Positions 55,389 through 63,016 of a DNA stretch of 64,000 nt are shown here, piece by piece. The first letter of the stretch is position 1. The number at the start of each line of letters is the position of its first letter. Below the pieces are notes generated by a model, which was given only the letters and a program-made list of their open reading frames with translations, did not search any database and was not told the origin of the DNA. The DNA comes from Thermincola carboxydiphila (GTDB lineage: Bacteria > Bacillota > Thermincolia > Thermincolales > UBA2595): positions 310,001 to 374,000 of the forward strand of contig JAENYP010000001.1 of NCBI GenBank assembly GCA_016841725.1, read 5' to 3'. Made by a program: the position numbers and the translations under genes.

Positions 55389-55649
55389 CTAAAAGTTCAA
55401 CCATCCCCCAATCAGGCGCTTTTCCATCTTTTGTATATGCAACTCCTTGTTATTGCCGCTATTGCCACCCGAATCACTGCCGCCACCGTTTTCTTTGTCG
55501 TTTTCTTTGCCCTCGCCATTACCACCCTTGGCAAGAAGCATATACATGAGTTCAGGCTCCTGCTTTTTGGCTTTGTTCTGTCCCTGAGACAAATCCGGGG
55601 TTGTTGCCTTTGCCACAGTCATTTTTATAAGTGGACATAGTATGGGCAA
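55389..55649 (-). pseudogene. remnant of an RHS-repeat protein linker
   Basis: An 86-aa ORF containing GQNKAKKQEPELMYMLLAKGGNGEGK and a Gly/Asn/Asp-rich stretch, the same low-complexity linker found in the two RHS reading frames at 57600 and 60050. Its two ends do not continue into RHS repeats. It is an isolated scrap of a third RHS copy. Confidence 0.65.
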
Positions 55650-55671
55650 CGAGTTTTGATGCAGTTGCCCG

Positions 55672-55803
55672 TTACTTCACCCTCAGCGGAATATTTACAA
55701 TGATATTGTCCACAATTGCAGCAAAGAACCTGTCACCAAATTTTGGACGTTCTGGTAAACTATATTCATCTGTACTCTTTTCCTCTAATTTATTTTCATC
55801 CAT
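55672..55803 (-). pseudogene. 43-aa fragment of an RDD-family membrane protein
   Basis: ATG 55803 reads MDENKLEEKSTDEYSLPERPKFGDRFFAAIVDNIIVNIPLRVK and stops. FGDRFFAAIVDNIIV is the start of the first RDD-family helix (Arg-Asp-Asp proteins); the rest has been replaced by RHS-derived sequence. A GAGAGGG ribosome site is kept. Confidence 0.5.
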
Positions 55804-55816
55804 AACATCCCTCTCC

Positions 55817-56465
55817 TTACACCTCTTTTCCCAGGACTTTACCGCTCTTTACATCAATTTTTACGCGGTACTTAATTGGGTATTGCTTTTCCATTGAAGG
55901 ACTGACGTTAAAAACCGCGTAATCTGAATTAATTTGCATTCTGGCAAAAGGCTGTTGATACTGAAAAATATTGTCCTTGCCAATTTCATTGATGGCAGTA
56001 TCATATAATTGTTTTATATCAGCAAACGCTAAGTTCTTTAACTTTAACTCTTTAATTTTTTTGGTCTTATAATAATCGTCATCATGGTAAGCTTCAACAA
56101 GTTCAATAATATTGCTATTTAAATTAACCGAAATTATAATTATGCCCCCTGGATTAGATTCATTGACACATGAGTTGAAACCAGTAATTTGCCTTTCCTT
56201 TATTTCCTTCTATTTCGTTCTTTCCAACAGAAATTATCTCTATGTCGGTTAAGACTGCATCTTTCCGCCATTCATGTGCGCGATTAATTGCATATGGCAA
56301 CCCATCTTCAACTGAATTAAGCGGTTTGTTAACTGGCCTCTCTGTGATATCCTGGAAGTCCAAAGGATGTTCCGGTGGTTTTTCCTGAAGTGCCCCAATG
56401 AACACATATGCTCCAATACAAACCATTAAGGTTATAATCGTGGCTCGCAAAGCGATTCTAAGCAC
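55817..56465 (-). pseudogene. frameshifted membrane-anchored PepSY-like protein (putative RHS immunity remnant)
   Basis: GTG 56465 opens MLRIALRATIITLMVCIGAYVFIG (signal-anchor) and reads 101 aa before a stop at 56160. The adjacent frame then continues with GGIIIISVNLNSNIIELVEAYHDDDYYK and ends YRVKIDVKSGKVLGKEV at 55817. The end closely resembles YYVKIDVYTGEVYRKEVK of the intact protein at 57940-58536, a PepSY-like terminus. A one-base shift near 56160-56190 separates the halves. It follows a truncated RHS tip exactly as the intact gene follows the main RHS gene. Confidence 0.6.
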
Positions 56466-56484
56466 ATTAACACCCCGCTCTCCT

Positions 56485-57874
56485 TTAATCGTTAAATTGC
56501 CTAAACAAAAGCAAATATTCTATCGTTTCTCTGCCATATTCGGTTGCACCGTTATATTTAGTAAGAACTTGCTCTAATTGATTGTCTGTAGCTTTTTCTA
56601 AATTAATTTTTAAGTTTTCAGCTTTTAATTCTAATACTAACCCGGCATAAAAAATATTTTCTTCATCATCATCTCTAAGCTTATACCGAATAAAATCCTA
56701 TGTTTTTGTTATATTCAACAAAATTCAGGTGTTTAGAAACCAATTTTTCTAAATTATCTCTAAGTTCATATTCACTGATTCCCTGATTGGATTCCTTCTT
56801 ACTAAATCCCAACGGATCCACCCAATTCACCGGGTTATTCTCCACATAAGCATACTTATGCATACTCAACGGATTAGCCATATATCCAGGGAATACATCC
56901 CTGGTCATAAACCGCCCCAGCTTTGGCGCATAGTACCTGCTCCTCAGGTACAACAGGTCACCTTCTTCATCCCACAACTCCCCGGTATAGCCGAACGCAT
57001 TATGGTTTACGTTTCGGCCATCCTCGGACAGCTTCGCTCCTGGGGCAGGCACACCATATTCATCATAGTTATAGTGGTCCCGTATCGCGCCATTGGGACG
57101 AATCATCTGGCGCACACTGCCCAGGCCATCGTAAAGATAGTACAGCGGGTCCTGGGTTTCCGGCCTTGTATCATCTAATGCTTCTACCTTGATGCGCTCT
57201 AAGCCGTATGCATAGGCAGCCTGATAATTATCCTCATCATCAAATGTCATCAGAACTTGTGGAGCTAAATTTACAGCATCATTGAGATAATATGTACTTT
57301 CAAGCAGCTGAGGGTTCAGGCCAAGTTCCAGCAGTTCGGCAAATTTACCGTTTTTGTACCAGCCTAAATGTTTACCCTTGTTTTCAAATTTGCCCTTGCC
57401 GGTGTAGCCTTTTCCGTTGTTGGTTTTGTCTTTATCCTGGCCTTTGCCGGTATTATCTTTGTCCTGGTCTGGCCCTTTGCCGTTATTGGATTTATCTTTA
57501 TCATTACCCTTGCCGTTATCGCTTTTACCGCCATTGCCGTTATTGCTGCTGCCACCCGAATTACCGCCAGAATTGCCGCCGCTGTTTCCTTTGCCCTCGC
57601 CATTACCACCCTTGGCAAGAAGCATATACGTGAGTTCAGACTCCTGCTTCTTGGCTTTGTTCTGTCCGGGCGGGATATTTTCTTTTTTTTGTTCTTTCTC
57701 TTTTTCTTCTTGGTTATTCTTTAGCTTTTCTTCCTGGTTATTTTTCAGCCCTTCATTAATAATTTCCTTTACAGGGCTCTTGGTTGTCATCTTCAGGGTC
57801 TTGTTCCCGGCACCATCATAGTCATATATAACGAGCTTGTCCTGGGGCAAATCCACTTCAATAAGGCGGTTAGC
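56485..57874 (-). pseudogene. orphan RHS C-terminal module (displaced tip) with frameshift
   Basis: This frame starts abruptly in RHS sequence (DLPQDKLVIYDYDGAGN) without a start region. It shares ~1.06 kb with the main RHS gene, including the RHS core end (YLRSRYYAPKLGRFMTRDVFPG, NPVNWVDPLGFSKKE). After that the tip differs (NQGISEYELRDNLEKLV) and stops at 56681. The adjacent frame continues with YKLRDDDEENIFYAGLVLELKAENL and LTKYNGATEYGRETIEYLLLF to 56487. That last part resembles the C-terminus of lytic-transglycosylase-like domains. It is a displaced toxin cassette inactivated by a frameshift around 56690-56700. Confidence 0.7.
56793..57874. repeat. 1.08-kb direct repeat, copy A (RHS core end)
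   Basis: Nearly identical to 59223-60280 (offset 2430 bp over most of its length). The main difference is 24 extra bp here in the KLKNNQEEK linker, plus scattered substitutions near the 56.8-kb end. Recombination between copies would delete the intervening immunity-like gene and toxin tip. Confidence 0.9.
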
Positions 57875-57939: not shown

Positions 57940-58536
57940 CTATTTAACCTCTTTTCTATAAACTTCTCCCGTATACACATCGATTTTTACGTAATATGAT
58001 TTTTTAGTTCTTTCATTAAATAATGTCACATCCCATGTTTCCATTCCATCGCGGAAAAGGTCATTCCCAGATACATAAACAACAATAAAGTCAGGTTCGT
58101 TATCAAAAGCCTTTTTTGCAAGTCTAATAGCATCTCCACTATCAATACTCCAAGCTGATATATTTAAATTACCAGGAACAATCTTGGAATCCCTTTCTTG
58201 GTCTATTATCTTCAAAATCTTGTTTTCCTTAGTATCAATATCAACAGTAATAATGTTAGGAACTCCATTCCTGTCTTTTTTATTATCTTTGAACCATATC
58301 TCTATTCTACCTTCGAGGTTTTTATCTAATGTCATACTTATTTTCCCTACCTGATAACTTCTATCATTCCAATATTTATCAACGTAAGGCTTTACTATCT
58401 CTACCATTTCTTTTGCACCTAATTTATTAGCGGGAATATCTTCGTTTATTATTTCTCCTCCACTTTTAAAGTAGTATATAATACTAACAATCAATGCTAT
58501 CAAAACTAAAGCAGTTATTAAAGCTTTATTTTTCAA
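57940..58536 (-). CDS. membrane-anchored PepSY-like protein, putative immunity protein of the RHS toxin
   Basis: 198 aa: N-terminal signal-anchor (KALITALVLIALIVSIIYYF), then an exported domain. The C-terminal part (DAIRLAKKAFDNEPDFIVVYVSGNDLFRDGMETWDVTLFNERTKKSYYVKIDVYTGEVY) has the PepSY pattern: helix, then WxVxL...VxIDxxTGEV. It lies 13 nt after the main RHS gene, the usual place for the cognate immunity gene, and its location outside the membrane fits a toxin that attacks peptidoglycan. Immunity is inferred from position only. Confidence 0.65.
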   Translation of the reverse strand: MKNKALITALVLIALIVSIIYYFKSGGEIINEDIPANKLGAKEMVEIVKPYVDKYWNDRSYQVGKISMTLDKNLEGRIEIWFKDNKKDRNGVPNIITVDIDTKENKILKIIDQERDSKIVPGNLNISAWSIDSGDAIRLAKKAFDNEPDFIVVYVSGNDLFRDGMETWDVTLFNERTKKSYYVKIDVYTGEVYRKEVK

Positions 58537-58549
58537 AACACATCTCCCC

Positions 58550-61500
58550 TTATTTTAGCATAGTTTTTAGTGGATCAAGATAGTCATAAACATAATCCGA
58601 GTATTCCTTTTGAGCCTCTGGATTGTCATCACTTGCATTGTATCTTCCTACTACTTGTTTCCACTGGTTCATTGTAAGATCAGATACATCTTCCGGATCA
58701 AATTTTTGCTTTGTATAATAATTTAGAACAACTGCTATTGTATTAATGCTTGCTTCATTATCTACAGCCAAACGCAATTCAATTTCCGCATCGGTTCCAT
58801 ATATTTTATAGATGTATGCACCTGCAATATCAACATCATACCATGCTTCTTTAGCCGTTGAAGGGAAAACAGCACCAAGTCCTGTCGAGTGTTGTTTACC
58901 TCTAATAATTGTATCAATCAAACCAATTTCATCGGGGACAGACTGTGTAATTTGTTCTTTTACAATTATTCCTGCAATTATTTCTGGCTTTACTCCATAT
59001 TTGCCTCCAGCTTCATTTATTTCATCTTTATATTCTTTTATGACATCTTCAATCATATCTTTCTTTGAAAACCTTATTCTTGCTAATGGATATTGCTCAT
59101 ATACCGCATCCCAAAGTGCATCTTTTGCTTTTTCATATTCCTCTTGACTGACATCATCATTATCTATTCCCTGTATAAGATCTTTCGGATTCGGCGGCCC
59201 ATATACAACTCCATTACCCGCTTCCTTCTTACTAAATCCCAACGGATCCACATAATTCACCGGATTATTCTCCACATAAGCATACTTATGCATACTTAAC
59301 GGATTAGCCATATATCCGGGGAATACATCCCTGGTCATAAACCGCCCCAGCTTTGGCGCATAGTACCTGCTCCTCAGGTACAACAGGTCACCTTCTTCAT
59401 CCCACAACTCCCCGGTATAGCCGAACGCATTATGGTTTACGTTTCGGCCATCCTCGGACAGCTTCGCTCCTGGGGCAGGCACACCATATTCATCATAGTT
59501 ATAGTGGTCCCGTATCGCGCCATTGGGACGAATCATCTGGCGCACACTGCCCAGGCCATCGTAAAGATAGTACAGCGGGTCCTGGGTTTCCGGCCTTGTA
59601 TCATCTAATGCTTCTACCTTGATGCGCTCTAAGCCGTATGCATAGGCAGCCTGATAATTATCCTCATCATCAAATGTCATCAGAACTTGTGGAGCTAAAT
59701 TTACAGCATCATTGAGATAATATGTACTTTCAAGCAGCTGAGGGTTCAGGCCAAGTTCCAGCAGTTCGGCAAATTTACCGTTTTTGTACCAGCCTAAATG
59801 TTTACCCTTGTTTTCAAATTTGCCCTTGCCGGTGTAGCCTTTTCCGTTGTTGGTTTTGTCTTTATCCTGGCCTTTGCCGGTATTATCTTTGTCCTGGTCT
59901 GGCCCTTTGCCGTTATTGGATTTATCTTTATCATTACCCTTGCCGTTATCGCTTTTACCGCCATTGCCGTTATTGCTGCTGCCACCCGAATTACCGCCAG
60001 AATTGCCGCCGCTGTTTCCTTTGCCCTCGCCATTACCACCCTTGGCAAGAAGCATATACATGAGTTCAGACTCCTGCTTCTTGGCTTTGCTCTGTCCGGG
60101 CGGGATCTTTTCTTTCTTTTTTTCTTTCTCTTTTTCTTTTTGGTTATTTTTAAGCCCTTCATTAAAAATTTCCTTTACAGGGCTCTTGGTTGTCATCTTC
60201 AGGGTCCTGTTCCCGGCACCATCATAGTCATATATAACGAGCTTGTCCTGGGGCAAATCCACTTCAATAAGGCGGTTAGCCGGGTCATAGAAGTAATCGG
60301 TGGAGCGTTCGCCGGGCTGCAGCATATTGATTAAGCTGCCATTACCGTCATATTTAAAAGTAGTCAGCCCTTCATCATCACTGTCTTCATCAGATTCCTT
60401 AACCAGGCTTAGCAACTCGTTGGCGCTGTTATAACTGTATTTCGTCCTGGTAAAAGCTTCTCCTTCTTTGCGCACCATTTCGGTCCTGTTGCCGACCGGA
60501 TCATAGGTATATTCAATCTCATGGCCGCTGGAGTTAATTACTTTTTCCAGCTGGTAAACCGGGTCATATTCGTAATATGTTGTGCCGCCCTCGTCCCCAT
60601 AAGTCTCAGTCAGACTTGTCCGATTGCCGGCCCTGTCATAGGTATATTCAAACTGTGACAAGAGCTTGCCAGAGGCGGCGCTATTGGTTAGAGCAAGCAG
60701 GTTGCTGGCCTCATCATAGCCGTAATTTATTGTAGCTCCATTGGGCAGCTGGGTCAGGACCCGGCGGCCAACCGCGTCATAAGCGTATTTTGTGCTGCCA
60801 CCGTCCCAGTCGATAACCTCCTGCAGCCGGTTCAGTTTATCATACAGGTATTTCACTTCCCTGCCGTCAGGATAAGTGATCTTAGACCTCTGACCGGTGT
60901 TATTGTATTCATACTCCACCGTTTTGCCGTCGGGGTTTGTTACGGCAAGCAGGTAACCCAGCAGGTTATAATCATAAGTTGTGGTGCCATAAGTTTCTTC
61001 CATGACGGTAAGGTTGCCCTGCTCATCATATTGGTATTTAATGACTTCTCCCGGATACCGGGTGCTTACCAGGCGGTTTTCTTATCACCGGAGTATGTGG
61101 GATGTTCCTCACCCTTACATCGGCAATTAACGGATATTCCGACCACTCATCAAGTGGGGTCATCTTAATGGAATACATTCCATCATCCATTGGCTCCCCA
61201 TTATTATCTTTACCGTCCCAGGTGTAATGGTTAGTTATATCTCTTGACTCCTGCCCGGCCATTTTACTTTCCGGGCTCGTATAGTCCCCCCGGTAGAAGG
61301 CTTCATCATCCAGGGTTTTGATAACCTGTCCGCCCTTCAGCAGGTCGATACGGACATTGTGGTCATAGTCAAACCTGAAGGTCAGAGTGCTGGTCTCATC
61401 GTGATTAGGATCAAATACAGTCGGGCTGAAAGAACCATCTCCCGGATCAGCATATGCCGGCTGGGTGCTGTTAACCCGGGCTGTTGCATTAAGCCCCGCC

Positions 61501-61604
61501 AGTATGCCGTTGACAATACCGTCCAGAGCCCCCATATTCAGGGCAATCGCCAGCGCCACGGCCAAGACCTTAATCCACCATTGCTTTCCAATGATTTTCC
61601 GCAT
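58550..61604 (-). pseudogene. RHS-repeat polymorphic toxin with lysozyme-like tip, frameshifted near the N-terminus
   Basis: ATG 61604 (AGGAGG upstream) starts a signal peptide, then a FlgD-like Ig segment (HYTWDGKDNNGEPMDDGMYSIKM), and stops at 61038. The adjacent frame begins ENRLVSTRYPGEVIKYQYDEQGN and runs through about a dozen YD repeats, the Gly/Asn/Lys linker, the RHS core end (DPLGFSKKE) and a ~200-aa tip to 58550. The tip has KYGVKPEIIAGIIVKEQ and STGLGAVFPSTAKEAW, matching the transglycosylase/lysozyme fold with Glu in IIVKE as candidate catalyst. An out-of-frame deletion at ~61.07 kb fuses N-terminus to mid-repeat. Whether the 58550-61003 part is still expressed is unknown. Confidence 0.75.
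59223..60280. repeat. 1.06-kb direct repeat, copy B (RHS core end)
   Basis: Partner of 56793-57874. The repeat ends exactly where RHS core gives way to the variable tip (after GFSKKE) on one side and in the YD repeats on the other, as expected for homologous exchange of toxin tips. Confidence 0.9.
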
Positions 61605-61628
61605 TTACCATTCCTCCTTTGTAGACAT

Positions 61629-61673
61629 TAAAAAGGCGCGCATCTTTCAGTTCCCGATACGCGCGCCTTTTTA
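61629..61673 (-). terminator. intrinsic terminator in the riboswitch expression platform
   Basis: Minus strand AAAAGGCGCGC-GTATCGGGAACTGAAAGAT-GCGCGCCTTTTT, an 11-bp stem ending in a U-tract, placed about 110 nt after the GEMM aptamer and 25 nt before the RHS ATG. Upstream GTACTTCA and TGAAGTA can pair with each other, offering an alternative fold that reaches the terminator's 5' side. Confidence 0.8.
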
Positions 61674-61779
61674 TACTTCATTCCTTAGCCTTTTCCACAA
61701 ATGTGGAAAAGATATACTTTTCTGAAGTACAAAAAACACCTACCCGATAAGATAGATGTCCTTTAGTGTAAGGTAATAT

Positions 61780-61892
61780 TTCAAATTCTGCTTCGGCAGC
61801 CCGGCTGTCGTGGCAGGGGTAACCCCCACCCTTAGACCCGTGGCTTTGCGCCCCCGCCTTTCAACGGGTTTGCCTTTTTCGGGAAATTTGAA
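61780..61892 (-). ncRNA. cyclic-di-GMP-I (GEMM-I) riboswitch aptamer
   Basis: Minus strand reads TTCAAATT...GGCAAACCCGTTGAAAGGCGGGGGCGCAAAGCCACGGGTCTAAGGG...ACAGCCGGGCTGCCG...AATTTGAA. It has all GEMM-I hallmarks: GGCAAACC, a GAAA tetraloop context, GCGCAAAGCC, CUAA, and the second-stem receptor GCCGGGCTGCC; P1 (TTCAAATT/AATTTGAA) is perfect. The base before CAAACC is G, which fits c-di-GMP rather than the cGAMP-preferring A variant (by my recall of the numbering). It lies upstream of a terminator and the RHS toxin gene, so it should control that transcript. Confidence 0.87.
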
Positions 61893-62149: not shown

Positions 62150-63016
62150 TTATAGCAGGTTAAGTGAATTGAGCAATGGTTTGGGATCAACATATACTTT
62201 GTCAAGGGCTAGCTTGTCAGCAGAAATTCCCATCGCCAGACCAATCAGCTGGGTAAAGAACAGTGTCGGGATATTGAAGTTTGTCTTATATTTCTTGTTA
62301 ATCTGTGATTGGCGCATATCCAGGTTCATCTGGCACATCGTACATGCGGCAACTACGGCCTGGGCTCCGGAATCCTTGGCCATCTGAAGGATATCCCTGC
62401 TGGCTTTCCAGGTGGCATCCTGATTGGTAAAACAGAGTGATGCCCCGCAGCATTCAGTCTTATAAGGCCAGTCAATTACTTCAGCGCCAAGAGTTCTCAT
62501 TATTTCATCAAGAGATTGGGGATTTTCGGGGTCATCAAAGAAGCCAAAGGTTTTCGGGGGTTTTACCAGGGCACACCCATAATAATTCACCACTCTTAAA
62601 CCCTTAAGAGGTTTTTTGACCACTGAGGAATCAATCTTATCCATGAAAATTTCGATGACGTTTTTAATTTTCATATCACTCTTATCAATTTTCTTTTCCA
62701 GGGCATTCTCCAGGTGCTGTTTCATTTCCGGGTTTTCGTTCATATCCCGTTGAGCCAAAAAATGCCTTACATAACAGGCCGGACATGGGGCCGTAAATTC
62801 TTCACACCCTGTAGTCTCCGCATTAACTACATTTCTGGCCGGGAGTGCAAATGAGAGAAAATGGCTGGTACTATGGGCTGATGATCCGCCACAGCAGTTC
62901 CAGTCAGGTACTTCAACAACGTCAATTCCCAGGGGACCGCTAATTGCTCTAAAAGATATATCTAATTCCTTTGATGAACCGTTCAGGCCGCAACCCGGAT
63001 AATAAGCTACTTTCAC
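62150..63016 (-). CDS. hdrB: heterodisulfide reductase subunit B-like (HdrB)
   Basis: A 288-aa protein with two CCG (cysteine-rich) domains: YYPGCGLNGSSKELD, DWNCCGGSS, CPACYVRH in the first; NYYGCALVKPP, ECCGASLCF, CTMCQMNLDMRQ in the second. These bind the noncubane [4Fe-4S] clusters where HdrB reduces disulfides. In bacteria HdrBC partners with an HdrA flavoprotein for electron bifurcation or thiol-linked redox; no hdrA is in the window. It lies 6 nt after hdrC. Confidence 0.9.
   Translation of the reverse strand: MKVAYYPGCGLNGSSKELDISFRAISGPLGIDVVEVPDWNCCGGSSAHSTSHFLSFALPARNVVNAETTGCEEFTAPCPACYVRHFLAQRDMNENPEMKQHLENALEKKIDKSDMKIKNVIEIFMDKIDSSVVKKPLKGLRVVNYYGCALVKPPKTFGFFDDPENPQSLDEIMRTLGAEVIDWPYKTECCGASLCFTNQDATWKASRDILQMAKDSGAQAVVAACTMCQMNLDMRQSQINKKYKTNFNIPTLFFTQLIGLAMGISADKLALDKVYVDPKPLLNSLNLL

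Follow-up and report, generated by a model that had tools for sequence, protein, structure and literature searches.

A class I cyclic-di-GMP (c-di-GMP) riboswitch aptamer sits directly upstream of genes of the Rhs (YD-repeat) family in the genome studied here and in its relatives, a link that is real, conserved and limited to one lineage, because it holds at all five Rhs loci of the source genome and at eight loci of related genomes, and adjacency was seen in none of nine more distant genomes. Sensors nearly identical to these also stand before related Rhs genes of several further genera. We consider it reasonably probable, taking the three points jointly, that this riboswitch is the standard leader of a secreted Rhs family in the lineage, that it acts as an OFF switch through a downstream terminator, and that the copy in the window (the whole 64,000-nucleotide stretch of DNA analysed) is a decaying one.

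A canonical c-di-GMP aptamer in the window

The leader of the window's Rhs gene contains the following features:

61884..61892, minus strand: 5’ strand of the outer P1 helix, TTCAAATTT, assigned by complementarity and fold
61872..61883, minus strand: aptamer 5’ strand CCCGAAAAAGGC (CCCGATAAAGGC in most relatives), the predicted antiterminator partner, complementary to the terminator 5’ arm and loop
61791..61884, minus strand: class I c-di-GMP riboswitch aptamer core (RF03167, 77.0 bits; RF01051, 80.1 bits), with the G20, A47 and C92 equivalents
61780..61788, minus strand: 3’ strand of the outer P1 helix, GAATTTGAA, paired with 61884-61892 in the predicted fold
Stem 61735-61760, U-tract to 61731, minus strand: proximal intrinsic terminator, the conserved expression platform, found in all RHS leaders compared
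61627..61730, minus strand: 104-nt repeat element between the terminator and the Shine-Dalgarno (SD) sequence, with copies elsewhere in the genome

The initial annotation had proposed a GEMM-I aptamer with P1 and tetraloop features on the minus strand, to be checked with the RF01051 covariance model, and on these points it was borne out. The aptamer at 61791-61884 is full-length and exceeds the gathering thresholds of both models (RF01051, 80.1 bits versus 35; RF03167, 77.0 bits versus 59, E 1.5e-16), and the P1 flanks (61884-61892 with 61780-61788), the core helices and the GAAA loop are all found. Using Vc2 numbering, which we take to place the G20, A47 and C92 equivalents correctly, the pocket bases are G, A and C (within GGC, CGCAAAG and GCCGA), and c-di-GMP is therefore the likely ligand.

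Rfam clan competition labels the aptamer c-di-GMP-I-GGC (RF03167), an assignment that would favour the sensing of another dinucleotide, either cGAMP or, if different, the ligand of the GGC variant. We regard this as very unlikely, because the bit score is higher with RF01051 than with RF03167, because the base at the 20-equivalent is G in every RHS leader, the window's included, whereas cGAMP-type riboswitches carry a G20A change (the A of the cGAMP, or GEMM-Ib, type was not encountered in these leaders), and because the 47-equivalent is A (CGCAAA) rather than the G of the RF03167 family consensus (CGCGAA). From the family's name and consensus we read the base at the 47-equivalent as the one that defines the GGC variant; since that consensus has G, the ‘GGC’ label should not be read as a change of ligand, and a GGC ligand variant was rejected on the A found here.

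With c-di-GMP as the likely ligand, we turn to the leader as a unit. Its 297 nt fold more stably than shuffled sequences (z = -5.9). The gene upstream stops at 62150, and a terminator-like hairpin of its own lies at 62132-62098, which makes it probable that the leader is transcribed as a separate unit.

Riboswitch-led Rhs genes in the source genome and its relatives

The source genome (G000; 3.88 Mb in 40 contigs, with the window in contig C25) contains 20 c-di-GMP-I aptamers and 16 GGDEF matches. When it was searched with PF05593, RHS repeats occurred at only five loci, located in contigs C33, C34, C19, C23 and C25 (the window), and each of the five starts directly behind a c-di-GMP-I aptamer (5/5). 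The five leaders are near-identical duplicates, and such copies inside one genome are treated here as duplicates and not as independent evidence. Elsewhere in the genome, c-di-GMP-I aptamers lead a flagellar operon (L057), Tad/Flp pilus-like genes (L046), a gene for an HD-GYP-like protein (L043), feoAB-like genes (L042) and genes for secreted proteins, these names coming from reading the sequences, without family searches.

Several of these other riboswitches have unusual arrangements. Two aptamers about 740 nt apart precede the Tad/Flp-like genes at L046 (G000:C11:87003-87088 and 87825-87909), the first with A at the G20-equivalent (the cGAMP-type change) and the second retaining G, possibly a two-signal arrangement. 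The aptamer preceding the flagellar operon at L057 (G000:C25:56545-56638) is weak (41.6 bits) and carries U at the C92-equivalent. Three aptamers lie within 1.7 kb at L052 (G000:C25:546906-548532), around the gene for a 287-aa secreted protein and the gene that follows it. At L047, L131 and L132 the riboswitch precedes genes for a small membrane protein and a signal peptidase, and the 5’ arm of the terminator is the 3’ end of the aptamer, an ON-type platform conserved in G000, G001 and G002.

Searching for other RHS genes preceded by GEMM, as the initial annotation had suggested, yielded hits beyond the source genome as well: among nine related genomes examined, eight RHS loci lie behind an aptamer, in five relatives from two families (G002:C2, G003:C39, G004:C55, G004:C96, G004:C29, G007:C22, G007:C60 and G009:C4). 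The last of these belongs to another family of the same order, and two, G004:C55 and G004:C29, have low aptamer scores (45 and 50 bits) and fragmented RHS genes. Most intact aptamer-led RHS proteins share a distinctive start (MKKIFGRKLW-like, then ALNLGALDG). RHS loci that have no aptamer and different N-termini were found at G002:C3, G002:C10, G003:C24, G009:C12 and G001:C31 (the last judged on 350 nt of upstream sequence), and five further RHS loci of the relatives lie at contig ends and are uninformative. The RHS protein at G007:C22 has a different N-terminus, yet an aptamer is present, which suggests a second, independent association between riboswitch and Rhs gene.

Outside the order, nine more distant genomes of the same phylum contain aptamers as well as RHS loci, and in none of them was an RHS locus near an aptamer. 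A scan of genome contigs with the RHS N-terminus gave close relatives only in HGW-Firmicutes-14 and Bacillota SKS1.bin35, along with one weak match in Coriobacteriia.

The conserved terminator and the inserts behind it

The proximal terminator is found in the five own RHS leaders and in those of G002, G003, G004, G007 and G009, and its stem shows compensatory changes among them. In compact leaders such as L122, which carries no insert, the aptamer, terminator, SD sequence and ATG follow one another within about 85 nt. In the window, the 104-nt element lies between terminator and SD sequence; it has a 97% copy at G000:C10:25440-25542, further partial copies in C37, C10, C18, C13 and C33, and no counterpart in the leaders of the relatives. 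Its predicted fold (-44 kcal/mol) includes a GC-rich hairpin, at about 61628-61670, followed by five T, and the proximal terminator is the weaker hairpin of the two. The ‘strong terminator’ that the initial annotation placed after the aptamer does not stand as such: it is the hairpin of the dispersed repeat, and was rejected as a regulatory terminator on that ground, whereas the conserved terminator is the one at 61735-61760.

In the other four own leaders (L044, L051, L053 and L054) the stretch from terminator to SD sequence is occupied by another insert, one with the look of an inverted repeat (GGCTC...GAAATGACC / GGTCATTTxCGGAGCC). The window's insert (61627-61730) and that of the other own leaders are two unrelated repeat-like elements.

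A predicted OFF switch with a 5’-strand antiterminator

Terminator and aptamer occupy separate stretches of the RHS leaders and can therefore exist at the same time; the terminator begins 23-31 nt beyond the aptamer, with a single exception. The complement of its 5’ arm and loop is the 5’ strand of the aptamer itself, a match that beats shuffles at p < 0.05 in 8 of 12 distinct pairs (mean z = -3.0). In other c-di-GMP-I leaders, from these and more distant genomes, the terminator is complementary to the aptamer 3’ strand (permutation p < 0.001); a 3’-strand antiterminator like that of the Cd1 riboswitch therefore fits the non-RHS leaders but not most RHS leaders, and was rejected for the latter. 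Three RHS leaders, L117, L125 and L127, are poor fits to the 5’-strand pairing, and the 3’ strand may take its place there. Both pairings destroy the aptamer, and therefore both predict an OFF switch.

In folds of partial transcripts ending before the 3’ arm of the terminator, the mean probability that the 5’ arm and loop pair upstream was 0.47-0.73 in most RHS leaders, 0.13 in L127 and 0.27 in the window copy, whose antiterminator pairing energy is -8.9 kcal/mol; the better leaders reach about -14 to -16.5 kcal/mol. Equilibrium folding of full-length leaders favours the terminator in most cases, so switching would have to be kinetic. No covariation was detected for the 5’-strand pairing within the RHS group (permutation p = 0.83), because the 5’ strand hardly varies.

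We propose that binding of c-di-GMP would hold the aptamer 5’ strand in the binding core, leaving the terminator, about 23-31 nt downstream, to fold and stop transcription (OFF). Without c-di-GMP, the 5’ strand CCCGAUAAAGG would pair with the 5’ arm and loop of the terminator, CCUAUCUUAUCGGG, the proposed pairing in the L122 leader being that of CCCGAUAAAGG with UUAUCGGG; this would break the terminator and allow transcription of the Rhs gene, such that the Rhs protein would be made at low c-di-GMP.

The opposite sign, in which binding of c-di-GMP prevents the terminator and sessile cells make the Rhs protein much as they would an adhesin, has a precedent in the same genome, namely the ON-type platform of the signal-peptidase locus L047, where the terminator 5’ arm is the aptamer 3’ end. 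We consider it improbable for the Rhs genes, whose terminators begin 23-31 nt past the aptamer (with one exception) and are compatible with a folded aptamer, and for which the competing pairings found destroy the aptamer. The architecture of these leaders thus makes OFF the likely sign of regulation, a call we make with good confidence. A more specific picture, in which the whole Rhs family is a dedicated c-di-GMP regulon whose switch was duplicated along with the genes, allows Rhs expression only when c-di-GMP is low and draws its antiterminator from the aptamer 5’ strand, is one we put forward tentatively, with rather more doubt than belief.

Damage to the window's Rhs gene and its probable decay

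Downstream of the leader, the window contains the following:

61038..61604, minus strand: RHS N-terminal fragment, a 188-aa ORF with a signal-peptide-like start and a FlgD_ig match, ending in a frame break
58550..61081, minus strand: RHS repeats and core, out of frame with the N-terminal fragment and open from 61081, with an ATG ORF at 58550-61003 (817 aa; RHS_repeat, Rhs_assc_core)
57940..58536, minus strand: small ORF right after the RHS ORF, with an N-terminal hydrophobic stretch and a PepSY match
56681..57856, minus strand: displaced second RHS core/C-terminal cassette (Rhs_assc_core, 6.2e-20)

The initial annotation had the riboswitch precede an RHS start codon, which is correct in part: an RHS-family frame with a good SD sequence does start at 61604, but the ORF is only 188 aa long and the gene is truncated and frame-broken. 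G004:C96 encodes a 2004-aa RHS protein, to whose residues 10-188 this ORF is 69% identical. The window retains residues 1-173, and the match resumes, in a changed frame, at about residue 1166 of that protein, so that about 980 residues are missing. The resumed part has YD/RHS repeats (PF05593, 4.2e-29) and the Rhs core (TIGR03696, 1e-19). An intact full-length frame was not found in the window and is present in the paralogs L044 and L054, the intact own copies being 2437 and 2486 aa long; of the others, L051 has no signal-peptide start and L053 is interrupted after residue 1461.

The C-terminal domain in the window has a weak muramidase-like resemblance, with sub-threshold matches (SLT_2/Tse3) only, and its structure model was uninformative (mean pLDDT 38.8); the L054 protein ends in a VanY/M15 D-Ala-D-Ala carboxypeptidase domain. 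C-termini that differ between copies in this manner are as expected for polymorphic toxins. A toxin function is putative, the contact-dependent killing suggested by the initial annotation is a candidate role, and the PepSY-containing small ORF is a putative immunity partner. The region 55389-57856 holds displaced RHS core/C-terminal cassettes whose shared part is nearly identical, an arrangement typical of Rhs tip exchange.

Given the deletion and the frame break, as compared with two intact paralogs, the window copy is most likely a decaying family member. Its decay would have involved insertion of a repeat with its own terminator-like hairpin behind the switch, weakening of the antiterminator pairing, and deletion and frame breakage of the Rhs gene. 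Judging from sequence and predicted folds, the leader may even be dead, with an aptamer that may still bind and an inserted hairpin that terminates nearly all transcripts, so that no Rhs protein is made. The stability of the predicted insert fold (-44 kcal/mol, with the GC-rich hairpin and five T), the repeat nature of the insert, the Rhs deletion and frame break and the weak antiterminator all point this way, whereas the 188-aa product and the downstream C-terminal cassettes could still be expressed; we see the matter as nearly balanced, with doubt slightly ahead. This possibility is compatible with, and partly included in, the decaying-paralog explanation. A genome of 40 contigs with five similar RHS loci might also invite misassembly of near-identical paralogs, which would account for the deletion and frame break. 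We find this quite unlikely, because the FlgD-like N-terminus differs from the other own copies and has its nearest match in G004, and because the junction is internal to a long contig.

Comparison with known systems

The established targets of class I c-di-GMP riboswitches are motility, pili and adhesins. In the lineage described here, a family of cell-surface, toxin-like proteins is probably coupled to c-di-GMP, the signal for motile or sessile life. A conserved link of this direct kind would put a likely interbacterial weapon under that signal without a protein regulator, and the riboswitch spreads together with its gene family through duplication.

In Vibrio cholerae, tfoY is controlled by the class I riboswitch Vc2. 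Type VI secretion in this bacterium is induced at low c-di-GMP via TfoY (PMC6618264), an indirect precedent for a weapon induced at low c-di-GMP; in that case a regulator stands between signal and weapon and the control is post-transcriptional, whereas the Rhs switch lies directly on the transcript and looks transcriptional.

The Cd1 (Cdi-1-3) riboswitch of Clostridioides difficile flgB belongs to the same aptamer family as the Rhs leaders (RF01051, GEMM-I) and resembles them in having a non-overlapping downstream terminator and, as predicted for the Rhs leaders, an antiterminator built from aptamer bases (PMC9262584; PMC6200980). In the Cd1 OFF switch the aptamer and its separate downstream terminator coexist and the antiterminator uses aptamer bases (PMC9262584), and C. 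difficile class I switches with demonstrated function turned expression off (PMC6200980). The Cd1 antiterminator is the aptamer 3’ strand, whereas the Rhs leaders appear to use the 5’ strand, and the gene downstream is flgB in one case and that of an Rhs protein in the other.

Our literature search found no paper linking any riboswitch to Rhs, YD, WapA or polymorphic toxin proteins. The loci described here resemble Rhs/WapA polymorphic toxins in several respects: they open with a secretion-signal-like start, continue through many YD repeats to an Rhs core and a variable C-terminus, and are followed by small ORFs and by orphan core/tip cassettes. The riboswitch-controlled leader sets them apart. 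Both the class I c-di-GMP riboswitches and the Rhs proteins are thus already known, whereas their conserved pairing and the 5’-strand antiterminator appear to be new.
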